Of a stretch of 42,542 nucleotides of DNA, positions 5,447 to 39,035 are shown one piece after another. Origin of the DNA: a virus. Numbering within the stretch: the stretch's first letter is position 1; each line of letters opens with the position of its first letter. Where the stretch lies: positions 1 to 42,542 of the IMG/VR virus record IMGVR_UViG_3300010399_000017; one strand, given 5' to 3'. A program made the translations under genes and the position numbers. The notes beneath the pieces were generated by a model, which saw only the letters and a list, made by a program, of their open reading frames with translations, searched no databases and was not told the origin of the DNA.

Positions 5447-8029
5447 ATGGGCCGCCTGACGGAGCCCCTGACCTGCGGTCTCGTCACCGACCGCGACCCT
5501 GCACTCTTGAAGCCCGGACAGTTGCAGGGCATGAGGAACCTGGTCTACCGGAACGGCGCCGCTGCCCTCTGCCATGCCAGAGGCCGGTCCCAGTTCGGGG
5601 TGGTCTCCGCCGCCACGACTGCTGTGGCAGGTTTGCGGGACATCCACTTCGACAACGGCGACTTCTACCTGGTGGCGATGGCGGGGACCAAGTACCGCTA
5701 CGCGGCTGTCGGGGCGACGGGGACGTTCGCGGATCTGGCGACCATTACCTCAGGTACGAGCCTCGAGGTGGTCCACTACCGGAACCGGTTCTTCCTGATG
5801 AACGGGGCGTCGGCTGATTCCTCGGCCATCGGGACGAACGTCGTCGCTTACCTGTCAGCGACCAGTGCCGGCTCCGCCATCCAGACCCGGAGCCATGGCC
5901 TCCTGCCAGTGGAAGCGGCTCCGAATGTCGTGACTGCGGCGGGGGCATTCTCCCAGACGGTGACGGGGTACTACGAGTACTGGACGACTGAGGTCGCCAA
6001 GATCACGCAGGATGGGGCCATCCTGACGCTGGAGTCCGCCTATTCCTCGGACAACGGCGTCACCACCGTTCAGATCACCGCCACAGGGCAGCAGCCACTG
6101 ATCTCCCTGCCGACAGTCCGGAACACGAACACGACCCACTGGCGGGTCTACCGAAGCCCTAAGAAGGACCTAGGGACGGACAAGAAGTTCCCGGTCGGAT
6201 TCATGATCGCGGAGCTGGCTACCGGAGCTTCGTCGCACGCTGACACGACGGCCGTGGCATCAGCATCGAGCTTCCCGGCGACGTTCAACTCGACGGGCTA
6301 CTACTTCGGCTGGGCGTCAGCTTCGAGCATGATCTCGGACAACGGCGTCTATGCCTCGGGTACGGTCGGGTCGACCATCACCAATGTCCAGCAGAGCGCC
6401 TACAACTTCTCGCTCGGCGGGTTCACAGGGGTCGTCAAGGGCATCAAGGTCGAAGTTGAAGGCTATGTCAGCGCTGGCTCTGCCCCCTGTCCTGTCACTG
6501 TGACCATCGGTAAGCGGAACGCCAACAACGGTGGACGGCTGTTCCAGACGAACGTTGCTCGCTTCGGTCAGCGTCCCTACTTGGTGGACGTGGCGGCTTC
6601 CAAGAGTGGGCAGTTCACGAGCACAAACTCGGCGGCCCCGACACTGTTGTCACTGGGCGGGTCAGACGACCGCTGGTTCCCGACCAACGACACGGGCCTG
6701 ATCGACACCGACTTCGACGCCACGTTCATGGTCGTCCTGACGGTGGCCAAGGCCAATACGACGGTGGGTGTGGACTTCGTCCGCGTCACTGTCTACTACG
6801 GGGCCTCGGTGGACTCGACGGTCCAGTTCCCGACGGTCGTCTACACGTTCGGCGACATCACGGCCCAGGTCGCCAAGAACTTCCCGCCGCCCTCGTCCAA
6901 CACCGGGGACCTGTTCCAAGACCAGTTGGTGGTGAACGACATCTTGAATCCGAGCATCATCCGGTATTCATCGCCGGGGGATCCGGAGTACTTCCCACCG
7001 ACCTACTACATGGACTTCGAGACCCGGGAGAACGACCAGGTCAAGGCCATCCGGGTCGTCAACAACCGGTTGATCGTGGGGCTCAACACCTCCATCCATC
7101 GCGTGAACTACCTGCCCTCGGAGCGGGACTCGAGTTTCGACCGCGGCAAGGCATCGGAGGTCATCTCGCGCTTCTACGGCATCGTGAACGCGATGTGCTG
7201 CACGACGATCACGATCGATGGGGAAGCGGAGTTGTTGGCCTTCATCTCCAACAAGGGCCTGCACACGACCGATGGGTTCAACTTCATCACCCGGAGCAAG
7301 AACCAGGACTGGCGGCTCTACCAGTCACTGACGGCGACGAGCACGCCCATCGCACTTCTGAACGACCCGGAGAACCGGGAGCTGCTGTTCTACTTCCGCT
7401 GCGATGCGACGGCCTACGGGAACGAGACGTACCAGTGTCTGCACGCGAGCTACGCGCGGGAGGACATCGACCGCGACGGCAACTTCAAGTTCTCGGGTCC
7501 TGTCAACCATCGCAACTTCGCCAGCAGCAACTTCGCCAGTCTTGAGTCGGCGTGGGCGGTGGCGAGGACAGACGGCAGCACGGCCATCTACACGGGCTAT
7601 GGCGGGTCGGGTGCTTCTGCGACGGCTGCGGGGGCGGGGTCGGTGTACTTCGAGACCGGTATCAACATCCCCTCTCAGAACAAGAACCTGCGCTTCAGGA
7701 CCCGTCGTATCTATGCCGCAGGGATCACGGCTGAGTGGACGCTGGACGACATGTACGGGTACTGCGGTGCCAACTCTGATGGGTCCACGAACGACGCGAA
7801 TATCTCCTATGTCTTCATCGGCACCAAGACCAACGACACCGGTCTCATCAATCTTGGTGGAGGAAAGAACATCCAGCTTCAGGGACAACGACTGCACAAG
7901 GTCAGTCCCAAGCTGGTGACGGAGGGGCTGGAGGTCAGCGCCAACATCACGGCGACGGCGAACGACTTCCAGCAGGAGTTCATCGTGCTGGGCTCGAGGA
8001 ACTTGGGTCCCGAGCAGGCGGGGACGTGA
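5447..8029 (+). CDS. Tail nozzle / tail tubular B-like protein
   Basis: An 860-residue, largely beta-strand protein beginning almost directly after the connector gene. The N-terminal segment (LKPGQLQGMRNLVYRNGAA, then RGRSQFG) is typical of podoviral nozzle or hub proteins, whose subunits form the distal tube and carry beta-propeller-like repeats. Aromatic-rich repeats such as GDFYLVAMAG and YRNRFFLMNG (residues 70-125) fit such blades. A middle part (about 280-440) resembles an inserted carbohydrate-binding-like beta-sandwich. The segment FPPPSSNTGDLFQDQLVVND (about 485) resumes the propeller. It ends with GTGA overlap into the next gene. Expected in the virion tail. Confidence 0.7.
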   Translation: MGRLTEPLTCGLVTDRDPALLKPGQLQGMRNLVYRNGAAALCHARGRSQFGVVSAATTAVAGLRDIHFDNGDFYLVAMAGTKYRYAAVGATGTFADLATITSGTSLEVVHYRNRFFLMNGASADSSAIGTNVVAYLSATSAGSAIQTRSHGLLPVEAAPNVVTAAGAFSQTVTGYYEYWTTEVAKITQDGAILTLESAYSSDNGVTTVQITATGQQPLISLPTVRNTNTTHWRVYRSPKKDLGTDKKFPVGFMIAELATGASSHADTTAVASASSFPATFNSTGYYFGWASASSMISDNGVYASGTVGSTITNVQQSAYNFSLGGFTGVVKGIKVEVEGYVSAGSAPCPVTVTIGKRNANNGGRLFQTNVARFGQRPYLVDVAASKSGQFTSTNSAAPTLLSLGGSDDRWFPTNDTGLIDTDFDATFMVVLTVAKANTTVGVDFVRVTVYYGASVDSTVQFPTVVYTFGDITAQVAKNFPPPSSNTGDLFQDQLVVNDILNPSIIRYSSPGDPEYFPPTYYMDFETRENDQVKAIRVVNNRLIVGLNTSIHRVNYLPSERDSSFDRGKASEVISRFYGIVNAMCCTTITIDGEAELLAFISNKGLHTTDGFNFITRSKNQDWRLYQSLTATSTPIALLNDPENRELLFYFRCDATAYGNETYQCLHASYAREDIDRDGNFKFSGPVNHRNFASSNFASLESAWAVARTDGSTAIYTGYGGSGASATAAGAGSVYFETGINIPSQNKNLRFRTRRIYAAGITAEWTLDDMYGYCGANSDGSTNDANISYVFIGTKTNDTGLINLGGGKNIQLQGQRLHKVSPKLVTEGLEVSANITATANDFQQEFIVLGSRNLGPEQAGT

Positions 8030-14975: not shown

Positions 14976-15379
14976 CCATGGATCTTATCGTCTGCAGCGT
15001 CGAAATCGAATTCAGCGTCGATCTCGCGCTTCAACGCATTACGCTTGCTGTTGTTGTCGAAGGCTTCGTAGCAGCGGGCCAGCGCCATCTCGAAGTCGAA
15101 CGACAGGGGCGAAACCCTGACTTCGCTCATGTCCTTCCGGACGAAATTCTCCAATTCCCAGCCGGCCTCGTTGACGGCCCGGAGTTCCCGTATCAGCCGA
15201 GTGAAGTTGGCGGTGACCCGTGCTGACAGGGGTGAGTTGCCCCAAGACTCCCGCAGGGCGGTGAACTGGCGTTTGAGGACGATGCGCTTGGCTTCATCGG
15301 GCTGATGCTCGTGTTTCAGCTCGGTGATGATGACGCGGTCCCAGAGCTCGCCGGGGGAGATCTGCGTCCAGATGGCCAT
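14972..15379 (-). CDS. DUF6165-like protein
   Basis: A 135-residue helical protein. The N-terminus (ISPGELWDRVIITELKHE) and C-terminal region (RCYEAFDNNSKRNALKREID) match what I know of DUF6165 proteins, whose usual signatures are a VSPGELIDKITIL-like start and a TNDxRAxLKREIN-like end. Bacterial members tend to sit in polysaccharide gene clusters, and their biochemical role is not established. That association is notable because this phage carries a large glycan cassette elsewhere. ATG overlaps the previous stop by one base (TGATG). The family call is by recognition only. Confidence 0.65.
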   Translation of the reverse strand: MAIWTQISPGELWDRVIITELKHEHQPDEAKRIVLKRQFTALRESWGNSPLSARVTANFTRLIRELRAVNEAGWELENFVRKDMSEVRVSPLSFDFEMALARCYEAFDNNSKRNALKREIDAEFDFDAADDKIHG

Positions 15380-16821: not shown

Positions 16822-17540
16822 TCCAAGTCCCTCGCTGCTTCGTAGGCCAGGAGTGCGCCATCGAACAGCCTGTTCCCCGCGGCTCTCTCTTTATCCGAGA
16901 GCAGGTATTCCTGCCCCGGGTCGTTGACGGTGGTGCCGCAGCGGTAGAGCCAGACGTCATGGACGGGGGCGTGGTTCAACTCGGTCCAGATGCGGCCGTA
17001 GGTCTGGGCCTGCGCCACCATCTCTTTGAACGGCCACGATGGGTGCGCCTTCGATGACTTGATGTCCACGACGATGATCCCCTTGGACCCGACGCACGCC
17101 TCGTTGGTGGCGGCGACGTCCATCGTGCCGCCGACCTGCATGTCCTCGGAGACCATCTGCAGCTCGGACGCCACGAGGTTGAAGTGCTTCTCCTCCCACC
17201 AACGGCGGAAGCGGTCGAAGCCGTTCACCGATTGAGCGTAGAGGTCTTCCGGGAGGTCGTCGGGGTCCAAGTCTTCACCCCGGAGCCAGGCCTCGATACG
17301 GGCGTGGGTGATGGTCCCCAGGTCTGCAGCCTTGTCGCGCTTCAACTCGGCGAAGTAGACCGGCTCACCCTTGGCATTGGGTTTCGGGATCGGCATCAAA
17401 GCGTTGTCGCGTTCCACCTGAGCGTACCAGCGCAGAAGCGGAGGCTTTGCCAACGTCCCGAGGACAGTGGTCACGCCGGGACGGCGTTTGCCGGCGGCGT
17501 TGAAGTACTGCTGATGAGGTTTGGCTAGGTTGAGTTTCAT
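16818..17540 (-). CDS. PD-(D/E)XK exonuclease (Cas4 / RecB-like)
   Basis: A 240-residue nuclease with all the elements of the RecB/Cas4-like fold: GTITH at 75-79 (His79), GTMD at 138-141 (Asp141), VVDIKSSK at 157-164 (Asp159, Lys161) and QAQTYG at 177-182. There is no iron-sulfur cysteine cluster as in Cas4. Such phage enzymes trim DNA ends for strand annealing or degrade host DNA. It lies downstream of an SSB-like gene, fitting a recombination module. The frame is open upstream, but ATG 17540 gives the conserved start just ahead of the fold. The start overlaps the stop of the TM microprotein (ATGA). Confidence 0.85.
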   Translation of the reverse strand: MKLNLAKPHQQYFNAAGKRRPGVTTVLGTLAKPPLLRWYAQVERDNALMPIPKPNAKGEPVYFAELKRDKAADLGTITHARIEAWLRGEDLDPDDLPEDLYAQSVNGFDRFRRWWEEKHFNLVASELQMVSEDMQVGGTMDVAATNEACVGSKGIIVVDIKSSKAHPSWPFKEMVAQAQTYGRIWTELNHAPVHDVWLYRCGTTVNDPGQEYLLSDKERAAGNRLFDGALLAYEAARDLE

Positions 17541-17647
17541 TTCGTCACCACCCACGACACCAGCCGCCACACAGCCCAGATGGCAAATCCACCGATAGCA
17601 ATTTGCCCGATAACGGTCAGAACCATTGCGATTTTCACGATCTTCAT
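17537..17647 (-). CDS. Single-span membrane microprotein
   Basis: A 36-residue protein, too short for usual gene calling, but it has a near-perfect ribosome site (AAGGAG, then ACACGAGA, then ATG) identical in style to that of the ssb-like gene. One hydrophobic span covers residues 6-28 (IAMVLTVIGQIAIGGFAIWA), flanked by lysines and arginine. It sits between the SSB-like and exonuclease genes and overlaps the latter by ATGA. Function unknown; phage membrane microproteins often modulate host functions. Confidence 0.65.
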   Translation of the reverse strand: MKIVKIAMVLTVIGQIAIGGFAIWAVWRLVSWVVTK

Positions 17648-17666
17648 TCTCGTGTCTCCTTGAGTT

Positions 17667-17729: not shown

Positions 17730-18314
17730 CTAGAACGGTACGTCGCTGTCCTTCTTGACCGGCGTGCCTTCACCGAAGGCCTCGAACGGGTCTTTCCCGA
17801 AGTAGAGGGCCTCCAGCCCGACCCACGTCTCCTTCAGCGCCAGCCACTCGGCCTTGATCTCGGCGGACAGTTCAGCCTTGCCGACGGGGACGACCGAGTA
17901 CTCGACGTCTTTCCCCTCACCGGCAGACGAGACCTTCAGGTCGTAGGTGGTGACATCGCCCCAGTCGTCATCCTCGAGCAGCGTATCCAGAGCGTTGTAG
18001 ATGGTGGCCTGGGTGAACTCCCAGACCTGGATCATGCCCATGGTGTGGTTGTAGACCACCGTGGCCCAGAAGCGCCTTGAGGGCTGTTCCTTGCCATCGA
18101 GCCCGGGGCCCCACTTGGTACCGGTGGGGAAGAACTCGTCATCGCGGATGCGGATGGGTTTCTTCTCAGCGGTGAACTTGACGTGGCCGGTGATGAACTG
18201 GTCGGCGGGGATCAAGATACGGAGCCGGGCCTTGCGGTCCTTGTAGGATTTGAGGTCCTTCGCGTTGAAGAACTTGCCGCGGACGTTATCGGGCTTACCT
18301 GGGATCTTGCTCAT
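17730..18314 (-). CDS. ssb: SSB-like single-stranded DNA-binding protein
   Basis: A 194-residue protein. The core (residues about 20-150) is strand-rich, with aromatic and basic residues that fit an OB fold (RLRILIPADQFITGHVKF; RRFWATVVYNH). It ends KKDSDVPF, very like the acidic DDDIPF tip by which bacterial SSBs recruit partner enzymes. It would coat single-stranded DNA during replication and recombination. Strong AAAGGAGACACGAGA leader before ATG. Located upstream of the exonuclease. The sequence does not closely match E. coli SSB, so the call rests on fold pattern, tail and context. Confidence 0.65.
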   Translation of the reverse strand: MSKIPGKPDNVRGKFFNAKDLKSYKDRKARLRILIPADQFITGHVKFTAEKKPIRIRDDEFFPTGTKWGPGLDGKEQPSRRFWATVVYNHTMGMIQVWEFTQATIYNALDTLLEDDDWGDVTTYDLKVSSAGEGKDVEYSVVPVGKAELSAEIKAEWLALKETWVGLEALYFGKDPFEAFGEGTPVKKDSDVPF

Positions 18315-18610
18315 TCTCGTGTCTCCTTTGGAAGAACGCGCGGCCAACCCGAGACCACGAGAAGGCCATCAAGGTTGCTTGCGGCCCCGAGACGGGGGCA
18401 CCGCGCGAAAGTGTTCTCGTTGGCTCGTGTCTCTCTCGTGTCTCGTGATTCACCGTAGACTCTCGTGCTCGTGGAGTCAACATGATTCAGTGCCGGGTCG
18501 GTGACTTTCTTGCAGTTCACGCCCAGGAAGCAGAGGATCAGGCAGCCGATGACGAACAGGATGGCAGGCACGTAGATCACCAGGTAGCCGACGACGCGCA
18601 GCGCCTTCAC
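18311..18610 (-). CDS. Membrane protein, partner of zinc-ribbon microprotein 1
   Basis: A 99-residue frame starting with GTG in GTGA overlap with the zinc-ribbon gene upstream. An N-terminal hydrophobic hairpin or span (residues 3-30, ALRVVGYLVIYVPAILFVIG) precedes a 70-residue polar tail. The span resembles that of the gene at 21236-21343 (ALRFAGWLVTLAIATLF), whose upstream gene is also a zinc ribbon, so the pair is duplicated. The tail region contains a candidate promoter and CACGAG repeats, so its C-terminal part may not be under protein-level selection. Function unknown. Confidence 0.55.
   Translation of the reverse strand: MKALRVVGYLVIYVPAILFVIGCLILCFLGVNCKKVTDPALNHVDSTSTRVYGESRDTRETRANENTFARCPRLGAASNLDGLLVVSGWPRVLPKETRE
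18424..18473 (-). repeat. Five CACGAG repeats ahead of ssb-like gene
   Basis: CACGAG (minus strand; CTCGTG on plus) occurs at 18424-18429, 18435-18440, 18442-18447, 18462-18467 and 18468-18473. A further copy is at 18316-18321, next to the ssb-like ATG, and copies occur in other early leaders. The cluster overlaps a candidate promoter and could be a regulator or translation-related site. Confidence 0.5.
18452..18480 (-). promoter_or_regulatory. Candidate internal early promoter (ssb-exonuclease)
   Basis: On the minus strand TTGACT (18475-18480) is followed by a 17-base spacer and TACGGT (18452-18457). The spacer holds two CACGAG repeats. It would give extra transcription of the SSB-like, exonuclease and Xre genes. 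The -10 match is only three of six. Confidence 0.35.
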
Positions 18611-18735
18611 GACCGTTTCTTTCCGCAATCGCGACACCGGCGATACGGTGCGACATACCAGACATCTGCTGGCGTTCCCCACCCGTGGGTCCACGCCCAA
18701 TCATGCCACCCGAGCCAACAGAGCACCCGGTTCAC
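18607..18735 (-). CDS. Zinc-ribbon microprotein 1
   Basis: A 42-residue protein, GTG start in GTGA overlap with the upstream gene. It begins NRVLCWLGWHDW and ends RRCRDCGKKRS. Cys6, probably His11, Cys34 and Cys37 are the expected zinc ligands. Two paralogues occur at 19736-19897 and 21340-21471. The format (small, C-x2-L-G-H start, CxxCG end) recalls DUF1660-type phage proteins, whose function is unknown. The following gene encodes a membrane protein, as for copy 2. High density of tryptophan (six in 42) is unusual. Confidence 0.7.
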   Translation of the reverse strand: MNRVLCWLGWHDWAWTHGWGTPADVWYVAPYRRCRDCGKKRS

Positions 18736-19358
18736 GGCTTCTCCCCCATCACGCGGGCCACCGCCTCGCGATGCTCGCTCTCAAGGCTGCCGAGCATCCG
18801 CTGCTGCGCGAACGACCATACGCACCGCTCCCCGAACTCCCGCAGGGCCGACAGGTCGGAGGGGGCGGAGAGGGCGTCACGAGCGATTTGCACTGAGCCG
18901 GGTTCGTCGAATGCGCCGAAGAGCCGTTCCTCCGCGCCCGCATCGTCGAAAGCCGCAATGTTCGTCAGCGCCCGTGTCATCTCCGCGAGCCGCGCCTGCG
19001 CTTCGTCCCGTTCTCTGCGCGCTATCGCCAACTCGCCACCGATTCCGAACCGTCGCTCGTTCTCCCGCTGCGCGTCGGCGAGGGCGGCGAGCACGGTGCG
19101 GAGGTCGCTCTCCCTGACGCCGCAATGCGGGCACGAGTCTGTAGCGTCGTTCCAGCGATTGTCGCTCCGCAGTCTCTCCACCGCCTGCTGCACGGACCCC
19201 TCGGGCTGCGGGGGCGAGTGGTCAAGCGAGCACGATATGTGGACGCTACCGTCCTTGCCCACCATGCGGATGCAGTTCGATTCGATCACGATGGGCGTGG
19301 TGAGAATGGCGTTCTCTACCACCGGCCTCCGTTCCTCGGGCTGCTTCACGTCGGTCAT
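18732..19358 (-). CDS. Hypothetical helical protein with CPHC pair
   Basis: A 208-residue protein. AAGGAGGGG before ATG 19358 fixes the start; the open frame upstream is not used. Residues 1-60 include strands (ILTTPIVIESNCIRMVG) and residues about 75-90 hold DSCPHCGVRESD. The long middle part (95-150) is a charged coiled coil (RRERDEAQARLAEMTRAL). No catalytic motif. The CxxC pair and coiled coil suggest a zinc-stabilised oligomeric protein. Family not recognised. It overlaps zinc-ribbon microprotein 1. Confidence 0.7.
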   Translation of the reverse strand: MTDVKQPEERRPVVENAILTTPIVIESNCIRMVGKDGSVHISCSLDHSPPQPEGSVQQAVERLRSDNRWNDATDSCPHCGVRESDLRTVLAALADAQRENERRFGIGGELAIARRERDEAQARLAEMTRALTNIAAFDDAGAEERLFGAFDEPGSVQIARDALSAPSDLSALREFGERCVWSFAQQRMLGSLESEHREAVARVMGEKP

Positions 19359-19362
19359 CGGG

Positions 19363-19743
19363 TTACCCCTCCTTGTCGAACGCATCGACGGCGGCGCGCT
19401 TCGCCTGCCACTTCGCCCACACCTCGTCGCAGAATGCCGCGGTCGGGACGCACTCCAGCTTCCTCGCAGCCTCGGCGTTGTTCGAGAGCCCGCAGCCGAA
19501 CGCGGCCCCGAGGGTGAACGCAGCATCGAACGCCGTTCGGACCTCCGCCCGGAGTAGGTCGCGCTCGGCGCGGAGACGCTCGACTTGCAGAGCGGCATTG
19601 TGCTCCTTCAGTCGAACGAGTTGCATGGATGGGTCCGCGCGGAAGCAAACGTGGTTCGGGTCCGGCATCCCATCGGCGTCCGCCGGCACGAAGTAGTAGC
19701 ACGATCCGCATTGGACCAGCGGCATCAGCACTCGGTCAGTCAC
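19363..19743 (-). CDS. Hypothetical protein with N-terminal cysteine motif
   Basis: A 126-residue protein with GTG start overlapping the upstream zinc ribbon by 8 bases. Residues 10-40 read VQCGSCYYFVPADADG then HVCFRADP, a C-x2-C ... C set that may bind metal. Residues 45-75 are a coiled coil (RLKEHNAALQVERLRAERD), and the end is helical. Ribbon plus coiled coil resembles the layout of the next gene (18732-19358). No recognised family or enzyme signature. Confidence 0.65.
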   Translation of the reverse strand: MTDRVLMPLVQCGSCYYFVPADADGMPDPNHVCFRADPSMQLVRLKEHNAALQVERLRAERDLLRAEVRTAFDAAFTLGAAFGCGLSNNAEAARKLECVPTAAFCDEVWAKWQAKRAAVDAFDKEG

Positions 19744-19897
19744 GGGCGGCCTCCGTTCGGTACATGACATGGAACTCCAGCTTGCCGCAGCGACGGCAGA
19801 CGAACCCGCAGCCAAGACGCTTCTCCGTATCGCCGTCGCGGATGCTGACGTATCGGCTTGCGCCGTGGAATCCCATCCAGCAGAGCACGCGGCTCAC
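19736..19897 (-). CDS. Zinc-ribbon microprotein 3
   Basis: A 53-residue paralogue of the two short zinc ribbons. It starts SRVLCWMGFHG and continues to CGFVCRRCGKLEFHVM; Cys6, His11, Cys34 and Cys37 align with those of copies 1 and 2, while the central part has diverged and the C-terminus is ten residues longer. GTG start in GTGA overlap with the upstream gene. Unlike copies 1 and 2 it is not followed by a membrane-protein gene. Confidence 0.65.
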   Translation of the reverse strand: MSRVLCWMGFHGASRYVSIRDGDTEKRLGCGFVCRRCGKLEFHVMYRTEAARD

Positions 19898-20244
19898 TTC
19901 CTACCTCCCGGCCCGGCTGCGGCCCCGAACGGCCCGCTGGCGTCGGCGGGCGCGAGCCCTGAGCATTTCGGGCAGCGGACGAAATGCCAACCGTCGCACG
20001 GTTCCTCATGCGGCTTCGCGTGGGCATCCCGCCAGAGGGCTGACAGAACCGGGTGCGAGTCGTTCTCGTGCACCGGAACCCAGCCCGTGCCCTCGCAGTC
20101 TCCGTCGCATCCGTTCGGCGGCCCGAACGTGTCGTATCTGCTCGTGAACTCGTAGCTCATGTCGGGGATAATCTCCCGTATTTTGGCCTTCTCGGATTCC
20201 AAGAGGTCAACTTCCCAATGGCGTGTGTGTTCCCCGTGATTCAT
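19894..20244 (-). CDS. Hypothetical protein with zinc-finger cysteines
   Basis: A 116-residue protein. GGAGGGG lies 8 bases before ATG 20244, which overlaps the previous stop by one base; GTG 20247 is a minor alternative. Residues about 46-53 read GCDGDCEGTGW and 85-98 read GWHFVRCPKCSG, two cysteine pairs reminiscent of DnaJ-type zinc repeats. The tail is glycine/alanine-rich. It probably binds zinc; no further function can be given. Confidence 0.65.
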   Translation of the reverse strand: MNHGEHTRHWEVDLLESEKAKIREIIPDMSYEFTSRYDTFGPPNGCDGDCEGTGWVPVHENDSHPVLSALWRDAHAKPHEEPCDGWHFVRCPKCSGLAPADASGPFGAAAGPGGRK

Positions 20245-20618
20245 CACGGCTTCCCCTCCGAGTCAGGCGCGAGCGAGCGGATGGCGGCGCGGCACGAGAC
20301 GAGTGCGTCGTAGAATCGCTTGACAGCAGGTTCGTGCGCGCCTTCGTCATGGTTGCCGAGCCCCATCCATTTCGCCGCGTTGTTGCCGGTGCCCGGAGTT
20401 GCGTCGCCGAAGATGCCACCGTCCCAAGCGCGGATGACAGCCTCGACTACGGGAACCCAGCTAGCCCGTTCCGCGACCTCGCCAGCGTGACGAGCGCGGG
20501 CGATGGCCTGGGCGACCTTGCGCTCGAAGTTGTGCCAGTCGCCGCGAAGCAAGGTGCGCGCGTCCTCCCAATCCTGCGGCGTGGGCTCTGGCGTGGGCGA
20601 CTCAGAATGCGATGTCAT
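20244..20618 (-). CDS. Hypothetical early protein
   Basis: A 124-residue soluble protein. GGAGGAAGAAG before ATG 20618 marks the start. The N-terminus is proline-rich, followed by a helical core (WEDARTLLRGDWHNFERK) and a segment with WMGLGNHDEGAHEPAVKRFYD. No cysteine pair. It could be a small globular helical protein of unknown role, translated in coupling with both neighbours. Family not recognised. Confidence 0.65.
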   Translation of the reverse strand: MTSHSESPTPEPTPQDWEDARTLLRGDWHNFERKVAQAIARARHAGEVAERASWVPVVEAVIRAWDGGIFGDATPGTGNNAAKWMGLGNHDEGAHEPAVKRFYDALVSCRAAIRSLAPDSEGKP

Positions 20619-20811
20619 CTTCTTCCTCCGGTTCGTCACCCACAACGACGTGTTCGACGGTCCACCATACGCGGAGTTTCTTGTCGCAGGACTCGCAGGC
20701 AGTTTTAAGCGGTTCGTCCCTCCGAGCATTGCCGATCAACTCTGCGAGGTCGGGCTGCGACGATCCGCAGTACGGGCAATCGCTCACTCCGGGCGGCGTG
20801 GGCGCGGTCAT
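20602..20811 (-). CDS. Zinc-ribbon protein with SSB-like acidic tip
   Basis: A 69-residue protein starting at ATG 20811 in ATGA overlap with the upstream gene. Residues 11-16 (DCPYCGSS) and 41-46 (ACESCDKK) give a four-cysteine ribbon. It ends EPEEEDDIAF, an acidic run plus Ile-Ala-Phe that closely copies the SSB tip DDDIPF. This could let it bind the SSB-docking pockets of host enzymes. The ribbon may contact nucleic acid or protein. No known family; the tail similarity is seen directly, the function is inferred. Confidence 0.65.
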   Translation of the reverse strand: MTAPTPPGVSDCPYCGSSQPDLAELIGNARRDEPLKTACESCDKKLRVWWTVEHVVVGDEPEEEDDIAF

Positions 20812-21239
20812 CGGGCCTCCGCGTCGAGCTTGTTGCGCCGGGCACAATCGGCATTCGCGTCGTCCTCGCTTCGAAACCATGCAACAGCCCCGGTAACGGC
20901 AACGATGCTCCCGGCCTCTCGGTCCGTGACGTGATACACGGTCCCCTGTTCGGGCCAGCCTACGACTCTCCACCGCGGCTTCGGCTTGCGCGCGGCCAGC
21001 GACTCGCGGCCCACGTCACAGCACACGCTAGAGGCGACCGGCGCACCATCGTAGCACTTGGACAGTTCCTCGCACGCCTCCAGTGCCCGGCGGTGCAGAT
21101 CGGTCACGAGCAGGTCGGCCGCGTGGAGGGCTTTGGCAGCGTCCATGTCCCCCTGCATCTTGCCGACACCCTCGCACTTCGGGTCGCAGCATCCGGTGCG
21201 GGCTTCGTGAATCACGTCACGCACTTGCTCAAGGCTCAT
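20808..21239 (-). CDS. Cysteine-rich hypothetical protein
   Basis: A 143-residue protein starting at ATG 21239, overlapping the upstream membrane gene by ATGA. It holds CCDPKC at residues 17-22 and CC at about 74-75, with single cysteines in between. The N-terminal half is helical (ALHAADLLVTDLHRRALEA). The C-terminal 60 residues look like a small beta domain (WRVVGWPEQGTVYHVTD; IVAVTGAVAWF). Possibly zinc binding. Family not recognised. Confidence 0.65.
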   Translation of the reverse strand: MSLEQVRDVIHEARTGCCDPKCEGVGKMQGDMDAAKALHAADLLVTDLHRRALEACEELSKCYDGAPVASSVCCDVGRESLAARKPKPRWRVVGWPEQGTVYHVTDREAGSIVAVTGAVAWFRSEDDANADCARRNKLDAEAR

Positions 21240-21343
21240 TGCGGCGGCCCTCCGATGTAGCTCAACAGCAGACAGGACCACAGGAACAGCGTGGCGATGG
21301 CCAGGGTCACGAGCCAGCCGGCGAAGCGGAGCGCGGCCCTCAT
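21236..21343 (-). CDS. Membrane microprotein, partner of zinc-ribbon 2
   Basis: A 35-residue protein with ATG overlapping the stop of zinc-ribbon microprotein 2 (ATGA) and ending in ATGA overlap with the next gene. One span covers residues 7-29 (FAGWLVTLAIATLFLWSCLL). Its start, AALRFAGWLV, resembles the membrane protein that follows zinc-ribbon 1 (KALRVVGYLV), so this is the second copy of the same two-gene cassette. Confidence 0.65.
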   Translation of the reverse strand: MRAALRFAGWLVTLAIATLFLWSCLLLSYIGGPPQ

Positions 21344-21471
21344 GTGCGGACCTTCCCGCAATCACGACACCGGCGAAATGGCGCGATGTACCAGATGTGG
21401 ATGGTCGGTGATCCCCATCCACGGTCCGATTGCCAATCATGCCATCCGAGCCAACAAAGCACGCGGCTCAC
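21340..21471 (-). CDS. Zinc-ribbon microprotein 2
   Basis: A 43-residue protein starting with GTG in GTGA overlap with the upstream gene. It begins SRVLCWLGWHDW and ends RRCRDCGKVRT. Cys6, His11, Cys35 and Cys38 are the likely zinc ligands. It is close to copy 1 (both contain CWLGWHDW and RRCRDCGK) and related to copy 3. The next gene encodes a membrane microprotein, as for copy 1, suggesting that the two products act together at the membrane. Confidence 0.7.
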   Translation of the reverse strand: MSRVLCWLGWHDWQSDRGWGSPTIHIWYIAPFRRCRDCGKVRT

Positions 21472-22596: not shown

Positions 22597-22695
22597 TCAG
22601 TCCTCCCGGCTCTGCGCCACGATGCTGCCGCTGGCATCGGTGATGTGCCAGAACTCGGCCAGTCGTCCCATCGGAATCCAAGTGACCTTTGCCAT
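22597..22695 (-). CDS. First early microprotein / leader peptide
   Basis: A 32-residue peptide (MAKVTWIPMGRLAEFWHITD at the start) preceded by AAAGGGGACACGAG. It lies 50 bases downstream of the strong early promoter, so it is the first translated gene of the minus-strand operon. It overlaps the ribosome site of the next gene, suggesting coupled translation. It may be a functional microprotein or a leader peptide. Confidence 0.6.
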   Translation of the reverse strand: MAKVTWIPMGRLAEFWHITDASGSIVAQSRED

Positions 22696-22704
22696 CTCGT
22701 GTCC

Positions 22705-22748: not shown

Positions 22749-22777
22749 AATATAGCCGCGTCCCATCCCAGCGTCAA
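22749..22777 (-). promoter_or_regulatory. Main early promoter, sigma70-type
   Basis: On the minus strand TTGACG (22772-22777), a 17-base spacer and TATATT (22749-22754) give close to consensus boxes at ideal spacing. Transcription would start near 22742 and run through the whole early operon to about 14020. This is the best promoter in the window and implies recognition by the host housekeeping RNA polymerase. Confidence 0.8.
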
Positions 22778-33929: not shown

Positions 33930-34600
33930 ACGGGCGGGTGCTGGTGATGTGTGCGACTCGGAACCGGCCGCAGCAGTTCGCGGCCATGGTCGAGTCGGTG
34001 CGGAAGACCAGCACCAAGGCCGACCTTGTCGCCTACGTCGATCAGGATCAGCGCGAGATGTACGAGACCGTCGAAGCTGACATGTTCTTCGGCGAACGGG
34101 TCGGGCAATGCCGTTCCCTGAATGAGCTGGCCCGCAGGATGCCCGGCTATTCGGCCTACGGCTCGGCCACGGATGACTGCATCTACGAGACCCCGGGCTG
34201 GGATGCATGGGTCCTGAAGAACGCCCATCGCCTGACCGCCTTCGCCCCGTTCTGCGAAGCCTACGGGCGTATGGACTTCCCCTGGGTCAGTGCGCGTTGG
34301 CTCGAGGCTGCTGGCTATTTCTGCCCGCTGGAGACGCGGCATTTCTACTGGGACGTCGCACTCCAGATCGCCGCTGAAGACGTCGGGCTTCTCTCCGCGA
34401 CCAAGGAACAGTTCCACATCAGCCACAGCAACATGGAGTGGTTCGGTGAGGAGATGAACGACGAGAACGGGTTCAAGACCGGGGTGGGTCTTTCCGCCTA
34501 CTACATTCACCGCGACGCCATGGTGTCGATGATCTGGCTCGCGCATGATCGTCGGGCGTTCGTCGAGAAGCTCCGGTCCAAAGCCTTGGTGGCAGCGTGA
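33926..34600 (+). CDS. GT-A-like glycosyltransferase paralogue a
   Basis: A 224-residue protein, probable TTG start overlapping the previous stop. It has the cassette's GT signature: CATRNRPQQF at 9-18, YVDQDQ at 37-42, GERVG at 56-60, and the acidic metal site TDD at 82-84, then WDAWV. The segment GRMDFPWVSARWL followed by FYWDVALQIAAE is closest to paralogue d (37699-38388). Nucleotide-sugar transferases of the GT2 fold use such DD/DXD sites with a divalent metal. Acceptor unknown. Confidence 0.65.
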   Translation: MNGRVLVMCATRNRPQQFAAMVESVRKTSTKADLVAYVDQDQREMYETVEADMFFGERVGQCRSLNELARRMPGYSAYGSATDDCIYETPGWDAWVLKNAHRLTAFAPFCEAYGRMDFPWVSARWLEAAGYFCPLETRHFYWDVALQIAAEDVGLLSATKEQFHISHSNMEWFGEEMNDENGFKTGVGLSAYYIHRDAMVSMIWLAHDRRAFVEKLRSKALVAA

Positions 34601-35241
34601 ACGGCCGCATCGGGGTGTTGATCCCGACTCGGGACCGCCCGCAGCACTTCGAGCGCGCGGCTAGGTCGGTCTACAAGACCGGACTCAAGGTTGACGTGCT
34701 GGCCTACATAGACGACGACCAGGAGAAGGACTACCCCGACACCATGTCAGGGGTGAAGCGTCTCATCGGTCCCCGCATCGGGCCCGTGGCTTCAGCGAAC
34801 GCTTTGGTCGAGAGGTTCCCGGACTACTCGGTCTATGGGCTCATCACCGACGACACAACCATGGTCTGCCGGGATTGGGACGAATGGGTCTTGGCAGCGA
34901 TGGACTCCATGGCAGGCAGGATCGTTGTCGTCTCCCCGCGCCACAATCTCGGTGAGCATGTCGACATGCCCTTCGTTTCCCGGGAGTGGATCGACACCGT
35001 GGGCTGGTACGCCTGCCCCGACTTTTACCACTTCTGTTGGCCCGTGCTCCTGGGGCTGATGGGGCAATTGACCTGTCTCGTCTACCCACCCGAGCAGGCG
35101 TTCTCGGTCCATCACGAAGGGCTGCCGCACACGAACCTGCAGGCACTGTTCGAGGACAAGATGGGGTTCTTCGACTACGTGGCCCTGAAGATGCCCCCGA
35201 TCATCGACAAGCTGCGTGCGGCGCAGCAATTGCCGGTATGA
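34597..35241 (+). CDS. GT-A-like glycosyltransferase paralogue b
   Basis: A 214-residue protein with GTG start in GTGA overlap. Motifs: PTRDRPQHF at 10-18, YIDDDQ at 37-42, GPRIG at 58-62, TDD at 84-86, WDEWV, and GWYACPDFYHFCW. The last element and the GPRIGP motif make it closest to paralogue e (38385-39035). Tandem with paralogue a, both starting MNGR. Likely cytoplasmic, using host nucleotide sugars. Confidence 0.65.
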   Translation: MNGRIGVLIPTRDRPQHFERAARSVYKTGLKVDVLAYIDDDQEKDYPDTMSGVKRLIGPRIGPVASANALVERFPDYSVYGLITDDTTMVCRDWDEWVLAAMDSMAGRIVVVSPRHNLGEHVDMPFVSREWIDTVGWYACPDFYHFCWPVLLGLMGQLTCLVYPPEQAFSVHHEGLPHTNLQALFEDKMGFFDYVALKMPPIIDKLRAAQQLPV

Positions 35242-35912
35242 GCCGCGGCCCGGTCTACATGCCGCCCCCGGGTACGAACCTCGCCTACAACGGCGAACTC
35301 GCCAACTACGTCATGTCGTTCTTCCCCGAGGGCTATCAGGGCTGGGCTATCGACGTCGGGGCGTCAGACGGGGTCTCAGTCAACTCCACCTACGGGCTTG
35401 AGAAGGCGGCCAAGTGGACCGTCATATCGGTGGAGGCGAACCCCAACTGGTGGCCGATGCTGCAGAAGATGCGGACCTTCGTCGAGCGCTGTGCGGTCTC
35501 CAACTTCTCAGGGGAGGCGACGTTCCACATCAACGACGACGAGCCGGAGTCGTTCTCTTCACTGAAGAAGCCGGACATGACCCGGACCTATCCGGCCCCG
35601 AACAAGACTGAACCAGCACCCAAGCCGGGGAGATCGTGGAGCAAGGCCCAGGTCAAGGTGAAGACTCTGGACGAGATCCTTACCCGCTGGCAGTTCCCGC
35701 AACTGGACGTCCTCTGCGTGGACACTGAAGGGACCGAGCTGGACGTGCTCGAAGGCCTCGACTGGAACCGGTGGAAGCCGAAGGTGGTGGTCATCGAATG
35801 CTGGGAGCCGATGAGCCCCTTGGACCTCTACATGGAGGCGATGTACTACAGGAAGACCGCCAGGAACGTCCACAACGACGTCTGGGTGAGGCGTGATGGC
35901 CATCTACTCTGA
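35238..35912 (+). CDS. FkbM-family methyltransferase 1
   Basis: A 224-residue SAM-dependent methyltransferase. AIDVGASDGVSVNSTYGLE (about 36-54) is motif I, VISVEANPNWW (about 62-72) the acidic ribose-binding loop, and VLCVDTEGTELDVLEGLDW (about 155-173) the FkbM D-x-E-G-x-E core. FkbM enzymes O-methylate sugars and polyketides and are frequent in surface glycan clusters. ATG 35238 overlaps the previous stop (ATGA). First of three tandem FkbM genes, and the most diverged. Confidence 0.85.
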   Translation: MSRGPVYMPPPGTNLAYNGELANYVMSFFPEGYQGWAIDVGASDGVSVNSTYGLEKAAKWTVISVEANPNWWPMLQKMRTFVERCAVSNFSGEATFHINDDEPESFSSLKKPDMTRTYPAPNKTEPAPKPGRSWSKAQVKVKTLDEILTRWQFPQLDVLCVDTEGTELDVLEGLDWNRWKPKVVVIECWEPMSPLDLYMEAMYYRKTARNVHNDVWVRRDGHLL

Positions 35913-36465
35913 CAACGGGGTGGATAAGGCTCTGGAGTCGTTGCTGCCGGCGTTCGGCTACGCTTGTGACGTCGGGGCCAATGACGGGGTCTTCAACAGC
36001 AACACGCTGGCCTTGGAGGAAAAGGGTTGGCTGGTCCTCTGTGTCGAGGCGAATCCGATGTTGGAGGAGCTTGGACGGGCGCGGAGAAAGCTATGGCGGT
36101 CCGTGGCTGTTGGGGACCGGGATATGGACGACGTTGTCTTCCATATCTGTGGTCCGATGTCTCCTTGGCCGAGTCGATCCTCGTTGGGACTTAGGGATGG
36201 CGGAGCCCCGGCTGACCAGACCGCATTCGTCTCTGTACGCAGGTTGGACCGGATTCTCAAGGAAGCCGGCTTCCCAAGGCTCGACCTGCTGACAGTCGAC
36301 GTCGAGAACTGGGAACGCGAGGTCATGGCAGGGTTCTCGGTCGAACGCTGGAAGCCCAAAGTCATCGTGCTCGAGGAATGGACTGACGATAACTTGGCCA
36401 TCCCCGGCTATACGATCCTGAAGAAGCTGTCGTACGACAACATCTACGTGAGAGACGCAGCCTGA
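35896..36465 (+). CDS. FkbM-family methyltransferase 2
   Basis: A 189-residue enzyme. YACDVGANDGVFNSN (about 21-35) is motif I, LVLCVEANP (about 45-53) the SAM ribose site, and GFPRLDLLTVDVENWEREVM (about 127-146) the FkbM core, with Asn-Trp in place of the usual Gly. It is highly similar to gene 3, so the two arose by tandem duplication. ATG 35896 has GGTGAGG upstream; GTG 35893 is an alternative. It overlaps gene 1 by 17 bases. Confidence 0.85.
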   Translation: MAIYSDNGVDKALESLLPAFGYACDVGANDGVFNSNTLALEEKGWLVLCVEANPMLEELGRARRKLWRSVAVGDRDMDDVVFHICGPMSPWPSRSSLGLRDGGAPADQTAFVSVRRLDRILKEAGFPRLDLLTVDVENWEREVMAGFSVERWKPKVIVLEEWTDDNLAIPGYTILKKLSYDNIYVRDAA

Positions 36466-37046
36466 TGGCCTACTACTCGTCCAACGGAGTGGACCGGGAA
36501 GTGGAGCAGTACCTGCCCTCTTGGGGCTACGCCTGCGACGTGGGGGCCAATGACGGGGCTTCCACGAGCAACTCCCTCTGCTTCGAACAGATGGGTTGGT
36601 ACGTGTTGTGTGTGGAGCCGAATCCCAACTTCGCTGAAGAAGCGCGGAAGCACCGGAAGCTCTGGCGGCAGGTCGCTGTCAGCGATAAGAACGGGGAAGC
36701 CCTGTTCACTCAGTTCGGTCCTCACCCATGGGGTGGTTCTGGGCTCAAGGACCTGTTGAACCTCCGCGCCAGTTATCCGCGGGATCACGAGGTCCAGACG
36801 ATGGTCCAGACCCGGACGCTGGACACGCTCTTGGAGGAAGCAGGGTTCCCGAGGCTCGACTACCTGACGGCGGACTGTGAAGGTTGTGAGCCCGAGGTCC
36901 TTGCCGGATTCACGGTCGAACGCTGGAAGCCGCGGGTGATGGTGTTCGAGAACAACAAGGTCCGCAGTCCTTTCAGCATCCCCGGCTACGTTCATGTGGG
37001 CACGCGGGAAGTGGACGAAGTCTACATCCGGCAGACACCAGCATGA
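36465..37046 (+). CDS. FkbM-family methyltransferase 3
   Basis: A 193-residue enzyme. YACDVGANDGASTSN (about 22-36), YVLCVEPNP (about 46-54) and GFPRLDYLTADCEGCEPEVL (about 126-145) match copy 2 nearly throughout, including AGFxVERWKPxV downstream. Here the core keeps E-G. ATG overlaps the previous stop by one base (TGATG). Retention of two close copies suggests methylation of two positions or of two sugars. Confidence 0.85.
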   Translation: MAYYSSNGVDREVEQYLPSWGYACDVGANDGASTSNSLCFEQMGWYVLCVEPNPNFAEEARKHRKLWRQVAVSDKNGEALFTQFGPHPWGGSGLKDLLNLRASYPRDHEVQTMVQTRTLDTLLEEAGFPRLDYLTADCEGCEPEVLAGFTVERWKPRVMVFENNKVRSPFSIPGYVHVGTREVDEVYIRQTPA

Positions 37047-37702
37047 CGAACCGAAGCCCGGTGACGGTCCTGATCCCGACCCGTGGGCGTCCGCAGTGCT
37101 TCAAGGACGCCATCGAGTCGGTGTGGAAGACGTCCTCCGCATGGGTCGTTGCCTACCAGGATGATGACGTCGACATGGCTGGCTACCCCACCGATGGCTA
37201 CAAGCTGATTCATGGGAAGCGCGTTGGAGTCTCGGGGGCCTTGAACGCGATGGCTCAGCATGTCATGGAGGAGCGTCCGTGGACGGAAGTTCTGGCCATG
37301 ATGACCGACGACTCCCTGATGATGACTCCGCGCTGGGACGACTTCGCTATCTCCGTGGCGCGGCGCTTCCACAAGGGGATCGGAGTCATCTCGCCGCGGT
37401 CACACAAGGGTGGGGTCCATCGGGTGGACCAGCCGGCGGTGACTATGGGGTGGTTCAAGCACTATGGCTACTTTGCCTACAAGGAAGTCGGTCACTACTG
37501 CTGGCCCAACGTCATCGGGCTGACCTCGGAACGTCTGTGCCTCTACAAGTGTTCCGCTCAGGAGTGGGAGATCGAGCACCGGCAGGTTGGAGGCCGGGAC
37601 CCGGCCTTTGCCTATGACTCGGAGCGGTTCTACGAGTGGGTTGCTTGGCACATGGAAGAGGCTAGGACGGCACTTGAACGGACGCTTGAGGTAGTGCCAT
37701 GA
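37043..37702 (+). CDS. GT-A-like glycosyltransferase paralogue c
   Basis: A 219-residue protein with ATG in ATGA overlap. Motifs: PTRGRPQCF (about 12-20), YQDDDV, GKRVG, MTDDSLMMTPRWDDF (about 86-100) and a C-terminal GYFAYKEVGHYCWPNVIG. It is the most diverged of the five paralogues. The TDD acidic site and the N-terminal nucleotide-binding strand point to a GT-A fold. It follows the three methyltransferase genes. Confidence 0.65.
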   Translation: MTNRSPVTVLIPTRGRPQCFKDAIESVWKTSSAWVVAYQDDDVDMAGYPTDGYKLIHGKRVGVSGALNAMAQHVMEERPWTEVLAMMTDDSLMMTPRWDDFAISVARRFHKGIGVISPRSHKGGVHRVDQPAVTMGWFKHYGYFAYKEVGHYCWPNVIGLTSERLCLYKCSAQEWEIEHRQVGGRDPAFAYDSERFYEWVAWHMEEARTALERTLEVVP

Positions 37703-38388
37703 CAGTCCTTGCCATCTGTGCGAGTCGTGGACGTCCGAGATGCTTGTCCGAAATGCTAGGGAGTTTCATTTCTACCTCAAGCACAGCTCACATCTGCATC
37801 TACCTTGACGTGGACGACGAGCATAATTACAGCCGTGTGGGACATGACCGCGTGATGTACATGGTTGGGGAAAGGGTCGGTCACCTGGATGCTCTTGACC
37901 GCATCATCGAAACCCATCCCGGCTACAAGGCTTATGGGCTTGCCACAGATGATTGTTCTTTCATGACTGAGGGATGGGATGGTCATGCCGAGAGGCTTGC
38001 GGAGAGTTTTCCTCACGGCATCGGAGCATTCGCTCCGTTCTTTGGTCTCATGGGCAGGATGGACTTTCCATGGGTGACTTCGGGATGGCTGAAGGCACTT
38101 GGGACCTATGCGCCCAACAAGTGCAAGTTCTATTACTTCGACATCGTCATTCAGATCTTGGCTGAACAGCTCGGCATCATGGGTTTTGCTGGAGAGAATG
38201 AGTTTGCCATGCAGCACCATAGCGTGGTGGGGACTGAACAGGACCCAGATCGTGAGAAGGGACTCAAAGACAAGAGCATGGCTGCATTCATCGACGGTCG
38301 GAACACTTGTTATTGGCTGCAGGATGGACGGCGAGAGGCAGTAGCCAAGCTAAAAGCTGCCTTGGCTGCGCGCGAGGTGATGGCATGA
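37699..38388 (+). CDS. GT-A-like glycosyltransferase paralogue d
   Basis: A 229-residue protein, ATG in ATGA overlap. ASRGRPRCL (about 8-16), YLDVDD, GERVG, TDDCSFMTEGWD, and GRMDFPWVTSGWLKALG then FYYFDIVIQILAEQLG. The last elements match paralogue a. The gene is less GC-rich than its neighbours (for example around 37740-37850), which suggests separate transfer or ongoing divergence. Confidence 0.65.
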   Translation: MTVLAICASRGRPRCLSEMLGSFISTSSTAHICIYLDVDDEHNYSRVGHDRVMYMVGERVGHLDALDRIIETHPGYKAYGLATDDCSFMTEGWDGHAERLAESFPHGIGAFAPFFGLMGRMDFPWVTSGWLKALGTYAPNKCKFYYFDIVIQILAEQLGIMGFAGENEFAMQHHSVVGTEQDPDREKGLKDKSMAAFIDGRNTCYWLQDGRREAVAKLKAALAAREVMA

Positions 38389-39035
38389 AGACGCTCGTGC
38401 TCTGCCCTAGCCGGGATCGTCCCCAGCAACTGGACAGGATGCTCAAGTCCGTCATGGACACTTCTCAGGCAGTCGTCGCGGTCTACTTGGACGAAGACAA
38501 CTCGTTCAAGTACCTGGACGTCTTCCCCAAGTACAAGGACCGCGTGCTGGTGACGGTGGGTCCGCGCATCGGTCCTGCCAAAGCCTGTCAGGAGTTGGTG
38601 GTCAGGCATCCCGAGTTCGAGACCTACGGGCTCGGGGTGGACGACTCCATCTTCTCGACCCCTGACTGGGACAGGTTCGTTGATGACTGCCTCCAGAGTT
38701 TCCCGAAACGGTTGGGGGTAGTGAGTGCCTTCCATGGTCATGCGCGCTGGGTGAACTTCGCCTACGTCTCCCGATCATGGATTGAGCATGTAGGCTGGTA
38801 CGTCTGTCCTGACCTTGACCATTTCTGCTGGGACACGGTCTTGGAGATGCTGGGGGACGCGACCAACATCGTCTACGCGACCAAGGAGCAGTTCTTCATC
38901 GATCATCGGGCCGAGCACACGGTCGCTGCGGGCGGTTCTAACATCGAGCCGGACTCAACGAAGTTCCTGTGGTGGTGTGTCATCGGCAGGCACGACCTGG
39001 TCCAGAAACTCAAAGCTCTCATGGTGGAGGCGTAA
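38385..39035 (+). CDS. GT-A-like glycosyltransferase paralogue e
   Basis: A 216-residue protein. ATG 38385 in ATGA overlap is chosen over the longer open frame. PSRDRPQQL (8-16), YLDEDN, GPRIGP, GVDDSIFSTPDWDRFV, and HVGWYVCPDLDHFCWDTVLE. It is closest to paralogue b; since a resembles d, the pair a-b seems to have been duplicated as d-e around the methyltransferase genes. Confidence 0.65.
   Translation: MKTLVLCPSRDRPQQLDRMLKSVMDTSQAVVAVYLDEDNSFKYLDVFPKYKDRVLVTVGPRIGPAKACQELVVRHPEFETYGLGVDDSIFSTPDWDRFVDDCLQSFPKRLGVVSAFHGHARWVNFAYVSRSWIEHVGWYVCPDLDHFCWDTVLEMLGDATNIVYATKEQFFIDHRAEHTVAAGGSNIEPDSTKFLWWCVIGRHDLVQKLKALMVEA

Follow-up and report, generated by a model that had tools for sequence, protein, structure and literature searches.

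The three zinc-ribbon microproteins described here are predicted products of the virus record IMGVR_UViG_3300010399_000017 (IMG/VR), a whole record of 42,542 bases that is covered in full by the stretch analysed (hereafter the window). Their closest described relative is PHROG 15735, a profile of unknown function that is matched at E≤1 by 55 of the 67 aligned members of the wider ribbon family (best value 4e-7). Its likeness to the ribbons comprises a length of about 41 residues, an LCWLGxH start and a CxxC pair, and gp65 of Gordonia phage TinyDot matches with an E value of 9.5e-12. However, the window copies taken alone, named ribbons A, B and C, match weakly (E 0.02-0.4; 0.027, 0.022 and 0.4, respectively, PHROGs itself setting no cut-off), and TinyDot gp65 differs in that the next gene, which is annotated hypothetical, lies 154 bp away.

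A second resemblance, to DUF1660 (PF07874), had been noted in the first-pass annotation of this DNA. PHROG 2670 is matched by 40 of the 67 members (best 1.6e-4) and DUF1660 by 10 at E≤1 (best 6.3e-4), and the DUF1660 proteins of Lactococcus phages themselves match PHROG 2670. Those of the Lactococcus prophages bIL285, bIL309 and TP901-1 and of phage ul36 likewise carry LC-x-L-x-x-H-x-W, C-x4-H and CxxC, with both ligand pairs aligning in register with the ribbon family. Profile-profile alignment by hhalign gave probabilities of 61.6 and 76.5 (the latter with P 2e-5), calculated with 4-5 DUF1660-type sequences only; together with the same C-x4-H and C-x2-C ligands, this P value speaks for the resemblance. 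However, the DUF1660 proteins show GH where the ribbon family has GxH, and most of the Lactococcus members fetched bear a C-terminal tail that the ribbons lack. Within the window nothing reached E≤1 with DUF1660, and in 16 records nothing passed the Pfam cut-off. The ribbon family is read as distant kin of DUF1660 rather than as a member of it.

TraR and lambda Orf73 are small zinc proteins with a C4-type finger, and this C4 zinc site of TraR/DksA differs from the conserved candidate ligands of the ribbons, which are C, H, C and C. These phage proteins bind host RNA polymerase (PMC11323111). They resemble the ribbons as small phage-borne zinc proteins and serve as a model of mechanism only; no sequence relation to the ribbons was shown, one of the 67 members matching TIGR02419 at an E value of 0.046.

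The ribbon genes of the window are as follows:

21340-21471, minus strand: ribbon A, a predicted 43-residue zinc-ribbon microprotein (C6, H11, C35, C38), GTG start
19736-19897, minus strand: ribbon B, 53 residues, without a membrane partner, GTG start
18607-18735, minus strand: ribbon C, 42 residues, closest paralogue ribbon A (69%), GTG start

All three proteins start with the motif (S/N)RVLCW(L/M)G(W/F)H and contain CR(D/R)CGK further on. Ribbons A and C match each other with an E value of 1e-19 in a search within the window, and in a residue-shuffle test the A/B and C/B scores lie 10.2 and 8.7 standard deviations above the shuffles, none of 2,000 of which reaches either. The 67-row family profile, 3 rows of which are the window ribbons themselves, picks exactly these three ribbons in the window (E values of 1.1e-14, 2.2e-13 and 1.3e-12). 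Ribbons A and C differ at 8, 7 and 17 first, second and third codon positions, respectively, over 41 codons, and they are read as coding DNA because the differences concentrate at third positions. Judged by these sequence comparisons, the three ribbons are real genes and paralogues. The first-pass annotation had proposed three ribbon genes of 42-53 residues with a common start motif, and open reading frames (ORFs), shuffle tests and family profile all agree with it. Its statement that the proteins end in CR(D/R)CGK is right in that all three contain the motif and wrong in that it is not terminal in ribbon B, which keeps the N-terminal motif and CxxC and extends 14 residues further at its C-terminus.

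Beyond the window, the family follows the pattern M-x(2-8)-LCWLGxHxW-x(n)-CxxC, with ORFs of 26-105 residues in the set collected. At least 118 stretches of viral contigs match a degenerate CWxGxHxW DNA pattern, and over all loci at least 77 non-redundant members with C-x4-H and CxxC pass the filter; this count is a lower bound, sampled from core-bearing members since the pattern required the CWxGxHxW core. Starts were assigned by rule, as the most distant ATG no more than 10 residues from the motif or, failing that, the most distant GTG or TTG. The 67-row alignment consists of the 3 window copies and 64 of the 77 members, the other 13 (near-duplicates, members with long tails and very short ones) having been excluded by eye. 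C6, W7, G9, H11, C35 and C38 are invariant in all rows. The fetch pattern behind most rows already demanded C, W, G, H and W in the first motif, so that the CxxC is the independent part of this conservation: it occurs in the open frame after the pattern in 64 of 81 matches, among the 80 loci listed, as compared with 3% of frames taken at random and 13% of those following any HxW.

Members occur in viral contigs of very unlike size, up to about 430 kb. Most viral records hold a single copy, and in a profile search of 50 of them G045, G063 and G071 hold two convincing copies; three profile-recognised copies per record, as in the window, is the maximum seen. In G071, ribbon genes at 15063-15179, 18036-18191 and 19519-19617 lie within 5 kb, and one of them is DUF1660-like. 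Three further members come from cultured actinobacteriophages, five of the cultured phages with matches having been inspected: Curtobacterium phage Trapezoid gp21, TinyDot gp65 and an ORF in Arthrobacter phage JaNo. The last (L255 1498-1608), which is unannotated, exactly fills the space between gp54 and gp55 and overlaps each of its neighbours by ATGA. In phage Tophat, a different, longer ORF is annotated at this position. A match in a crAss-like phage was not counted, as it runs antisense within a long gene. Taken together, membership of the window ribbons in a widespread family of putative phage zinc-ribbon microproteins is well supported. Searches of a paper library listed nothing on DUF1660/PF07874 or on the ribbon family, and a PADLOC scan, directed at defence and not at exclusion systems, matched none of the 67 members. 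The family is already known as a profile of unknown function, and in the annotated phages inspected it was either missed or called hypothetical. Because it is recurrent yet so treated, a single assay of one such microprotein could put a name to a gene across many genomes.

Conservation of the ligands suggests that the ribbons bind zinc. The ribbon A model has a pLDDT of 73.8, and that of a 34-residue, short-loop family member reaches 86.6, with a helix at residues 2-7 and strands at 13-16, 19-22 and 28-30. The ribbon would be a compact zinc-stabilised fold in which a short N-terminal helix with the first Cys is followed by the His, a β-hairpin and a CxxC knuckle, an arrangement that would leave no space for an enzyme active site. 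Searches of the PDB gave no significant match, either by fold with the ribbon A and 34-residue models (best E value of 2.9) or by sequence (best 0.036), and a second fold inspection returned one chain with a Z score of 2.3 (r.m.s.d. 3.9 over 31 residues). Against a viral fold library ribbon A likewise found no significant match, the best insignificant rows including other small phage proteins. The closest matches by sequence and fold, all very weak, are zinc ribbons of ribosomal and transcription proteins, as might be expected if the ribbons bound DNA or RNA to regulate genes of the phage itself and were not host-binding adaptors. However, none of these matches is significant and the members reside in unlike genomes and gene neighbourhoods, so that we regard such a regulatory role as improbable. 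The reading that we favour, tentatively and with slightly more doubt than belief, is that the ribbons are zinc-stabilised adaptors that bind a host target, encoded in an accessory operon together with a dispensable membrane companion. By analogy with TraR and lambda Orf73 on RNA polymerase, not by membership, each ribbon might bind one host protein or ribonucleoprotein, and additional copies might diversify or dose that binding.

The membrane companion concerns the genes that directly follow the ribbons, with membrane segments called by Kyte-Doolittle hydropathy only:

21236-21343, minus strand: membrane microprotein A, 35 residues with a single hydrophobic segment, overlapping ribbon A by ATGA
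18311-18610, minus strand: membrane protein C, 99 residues, an N-terminal helix like membrane microprotein A followed by a hydrophilic tail
19363-19743, minus strand: gene after ribbon B, a CxxC protein with no membrane segment over threshold, start possible at 19743 or 19731

The gene of membrane protein C has a GTGA overlap with ribbon C and an ATGA overlap with the gene that follows; its hydrophilic tail is absent from the shorter membrane microprotein A. The membrane parts of the two proteins show 46% identity over 28 residues (E 6e-6), and their DNA in register is identical at 52 of 87 positions, as against a mean of 31.7 and a maximum of 48 in codon shuffles (0 of 5,000 reach the observed value). 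By contrast, the 60 bases 5′ of ribbons A and C are unrelated (18 of 60 identical), and the ends of the duplication are the ends of the genes. The pair of ribbon and membrane helix is duplicated as a unit of about 0.23 kb, beyond what chance would give. The two-gene duplication inferred in the first-pass annotation is thereby borne out, both the ribbon parts (69%) and the membrane parts being homologous. The pairing was correct in that two of the three ribbons precede a membrane gene and mistaken in which ones, the paired copies being those at 18607 and 21340, not 19736. A third membrane microprotein, at 17537-17647, was considered as kin of the two partners and rejected (z about 1).

The first-pass annotation had also taken the GTGA/ATGA coupling as a sign that the two products form a complex. 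The same 4-bp overlap occurs at 12 of the 15 gene junctions of the operon between 22374 and 17730 (one of the 12 with an alternative start), and because it is found operon-wide it does not set the pair apart and was rejected as evidence for a complex. This is consistent with a reading in which ribbon and membrane genes are unrelated cargo caught in a chance short duplication, within an operon that is a loose set of small host-takeover genes. However, the duplication boundaries match gene ends, and both genes of both copies are still open and recognisable after divergence; on balance we consider the unrelated-cargo reading unlikely, though a serious contender. The rival readings are not mutually exclusive, and unrelated cargo is compatible with an adaptor role for the ribbon itself.

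Conservation of the pair was followed in relatives drawn from 62 portal-protein loci in viral contigs, many of which are fragments. A profile of ribbons A and C finds a ribbon in 1 of 37 portal-relative records (G013), and the family profile gives a clear match in 1 of 24 (G013 again, E 6.6e-6); in G020 the match is weak and confined to the CxxC part (E 0.007). This scarcity, read with the number of fragments in mind, and the lack of a conserved pair in the relatives checked both speak for unrelated cargo. In G013, the product of the gene after the ribbon has no membrane segment. Conversely, a homologue of the longer membrane protein occurs in 1 of 10 relatives, namely G005, the closest relative spanning the region (40% identity over the alignment), where a family-profile search found no ribbon and where the membrane gene sits after a gene whose product looks by eye like a phage DNA methylase. 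Scanning viral contigs with the membrane proteins returned G005 only, and an alignment of the membrane parts used as bait added nothing further. Conservation of the pair, which the first-pass annotation had made a test of its proposal, was not seen in the relatives checked, many of them fragments, and this outcome goes mostly against the complex. Because G005 has the membrane protein without the ribbon, and G013 the ribbon without the membrane protein, the idea of a complex is weakened. The best reading is that the membrane companion is dispensable, not an obligatory partner of the ribbon; it would be a separate, single-pass inner-membrane protein that travelled along with it.

In another reading, ribbon and membrane microprotein would form a single complex tethered to the membrane, which would serve in exclusion or in modifying the envelope and would have been duplicated as one module. 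Outside the window, a membrane protein lies directly downstream of 12 of 55 family genes, as compared with 27 of 330 short genes taken as controls (p 0.006). In L220, a ribbon gene overlaps a gene for a 36-residue transmembrane (TM) protein by 4 bp. In L003, a 216-kb viral contig, a membrane helix is fused at 7753-7989 to a ribbon with C-x4-H and CxxC. A further ribbon gene comes directly after this fusion, and the ribbon part of the fusion is nearly identical to the C-terminus of the L190 ribbon. These cases, together with the exact co-duplication of the two genes in the window, argue for tethering. However, the downstream excess drops to 9 of 52 (p 0.07) once three pairs of related loci are merged, the control not being collapsed for relatedness, and the upstream side shows no excess (7 of 59 family genes versus 32 of 333 controls). 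Both counts depend on a simple gene caller written for the purpose, which missed ribbons A and C until they were forced in. In addition, the membrane neighbours are of unlike kinds, apparently unrelated to one another. With ribbon B and the G013 ribbon lacking a membrane gene, the G005 membrane gene lacking a ribbon and the excess at p 0.07, the pair was rejected as a general property of the family, and a tethered complex appears quite unlikely. A membrane link is possible, but it would not be the rule, and unless it is shown the two-gene duplication carries little weight.

Several points count against the adaptor reading that we favour. Matches to Pfam and NCBIfam are weak: Pfam gives none for ribbons A and C and insignificant ones for ribbon B. 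Zinc binding is predicted from the ligands alone, and the exact co-duplication together with the TM-ribbon fusion of L003 favours a functional membrane link. Most of the doubt falls on the host-binding step, because that step is one we infer, no family member having a known function. A bolder reading joins both themes: the ribbons may make up a host-takeover family of very wide distribution, for the most part unnamed, whose members are at times tethered to the membrane, by fusion as in L003 or by an overlapping single-pass partner, and this phage would have expanded the tethered form into a small set of genes whose targets differ. We hold it to be a long shot.

The window belongs to an uncultured tailed phage, its proteins including an SU10-type major capsid protein (E 2e-50) and an M15 peptidase; a holin-like protein scores below the Pfam cut-off. 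No host was found, because searches of genome contigs with the ribbons and the portal protein gave no match leading to one, and Rfam and transfer RNA scans gave no lead. The ribbon genes sit within a leftward, minus-strand series of small genes, to which two further features belong:

22749-22777, minus strand: match to a sigma70-like promoter (TTGACG-17-TATATT), situated upstream of this operon, 0.9 chance matches being expected in the scan
17730-18314, minus strand: next operon gene after membrane protein C, 59% identical to a G005 gene, with weak PHROG matches to single-strand DNA binding proteins

The latter gene, used as bait in viral contigs, gave no lead. Small proteins with Cys pairs are encoded elsewhere in the operon at 18732-19358, 19363-19743, 19894-20247, 20602-20811 and 20808-21239 (minus strand), and those scanned, all except 20602-20811, showed no significant family match.

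The exact 8-mer ACACGAGA occurs only four times in the window, at 17648-17655, 18315-18322, 22695-22702 and 18434-18441 (minus strand). Three of these lie at start codons, with GGAGACACGAGA or GGGGACACGAG preceding or running into the ATG, and the fourth falls in the tail of the longer membrane protein, where CACGAGA recurs in a cluster (18423-18468). The 8-mer is possibly a shared translation or regulatory element. Over-representation of ACACGAGA with one mismatch was rejected (35 found versus 42 expected). Finally, on the plus strand at 34597-39035 a series of genes look related (those at 34597, 37043, 37699 and 38307 and their neighbours). Compared by eye, the products have short motifs in common, for example TDD and G(P/E)R(I/V)G; they are apparently a tandemly expanded family, perhaps glycosyltransferase-like.

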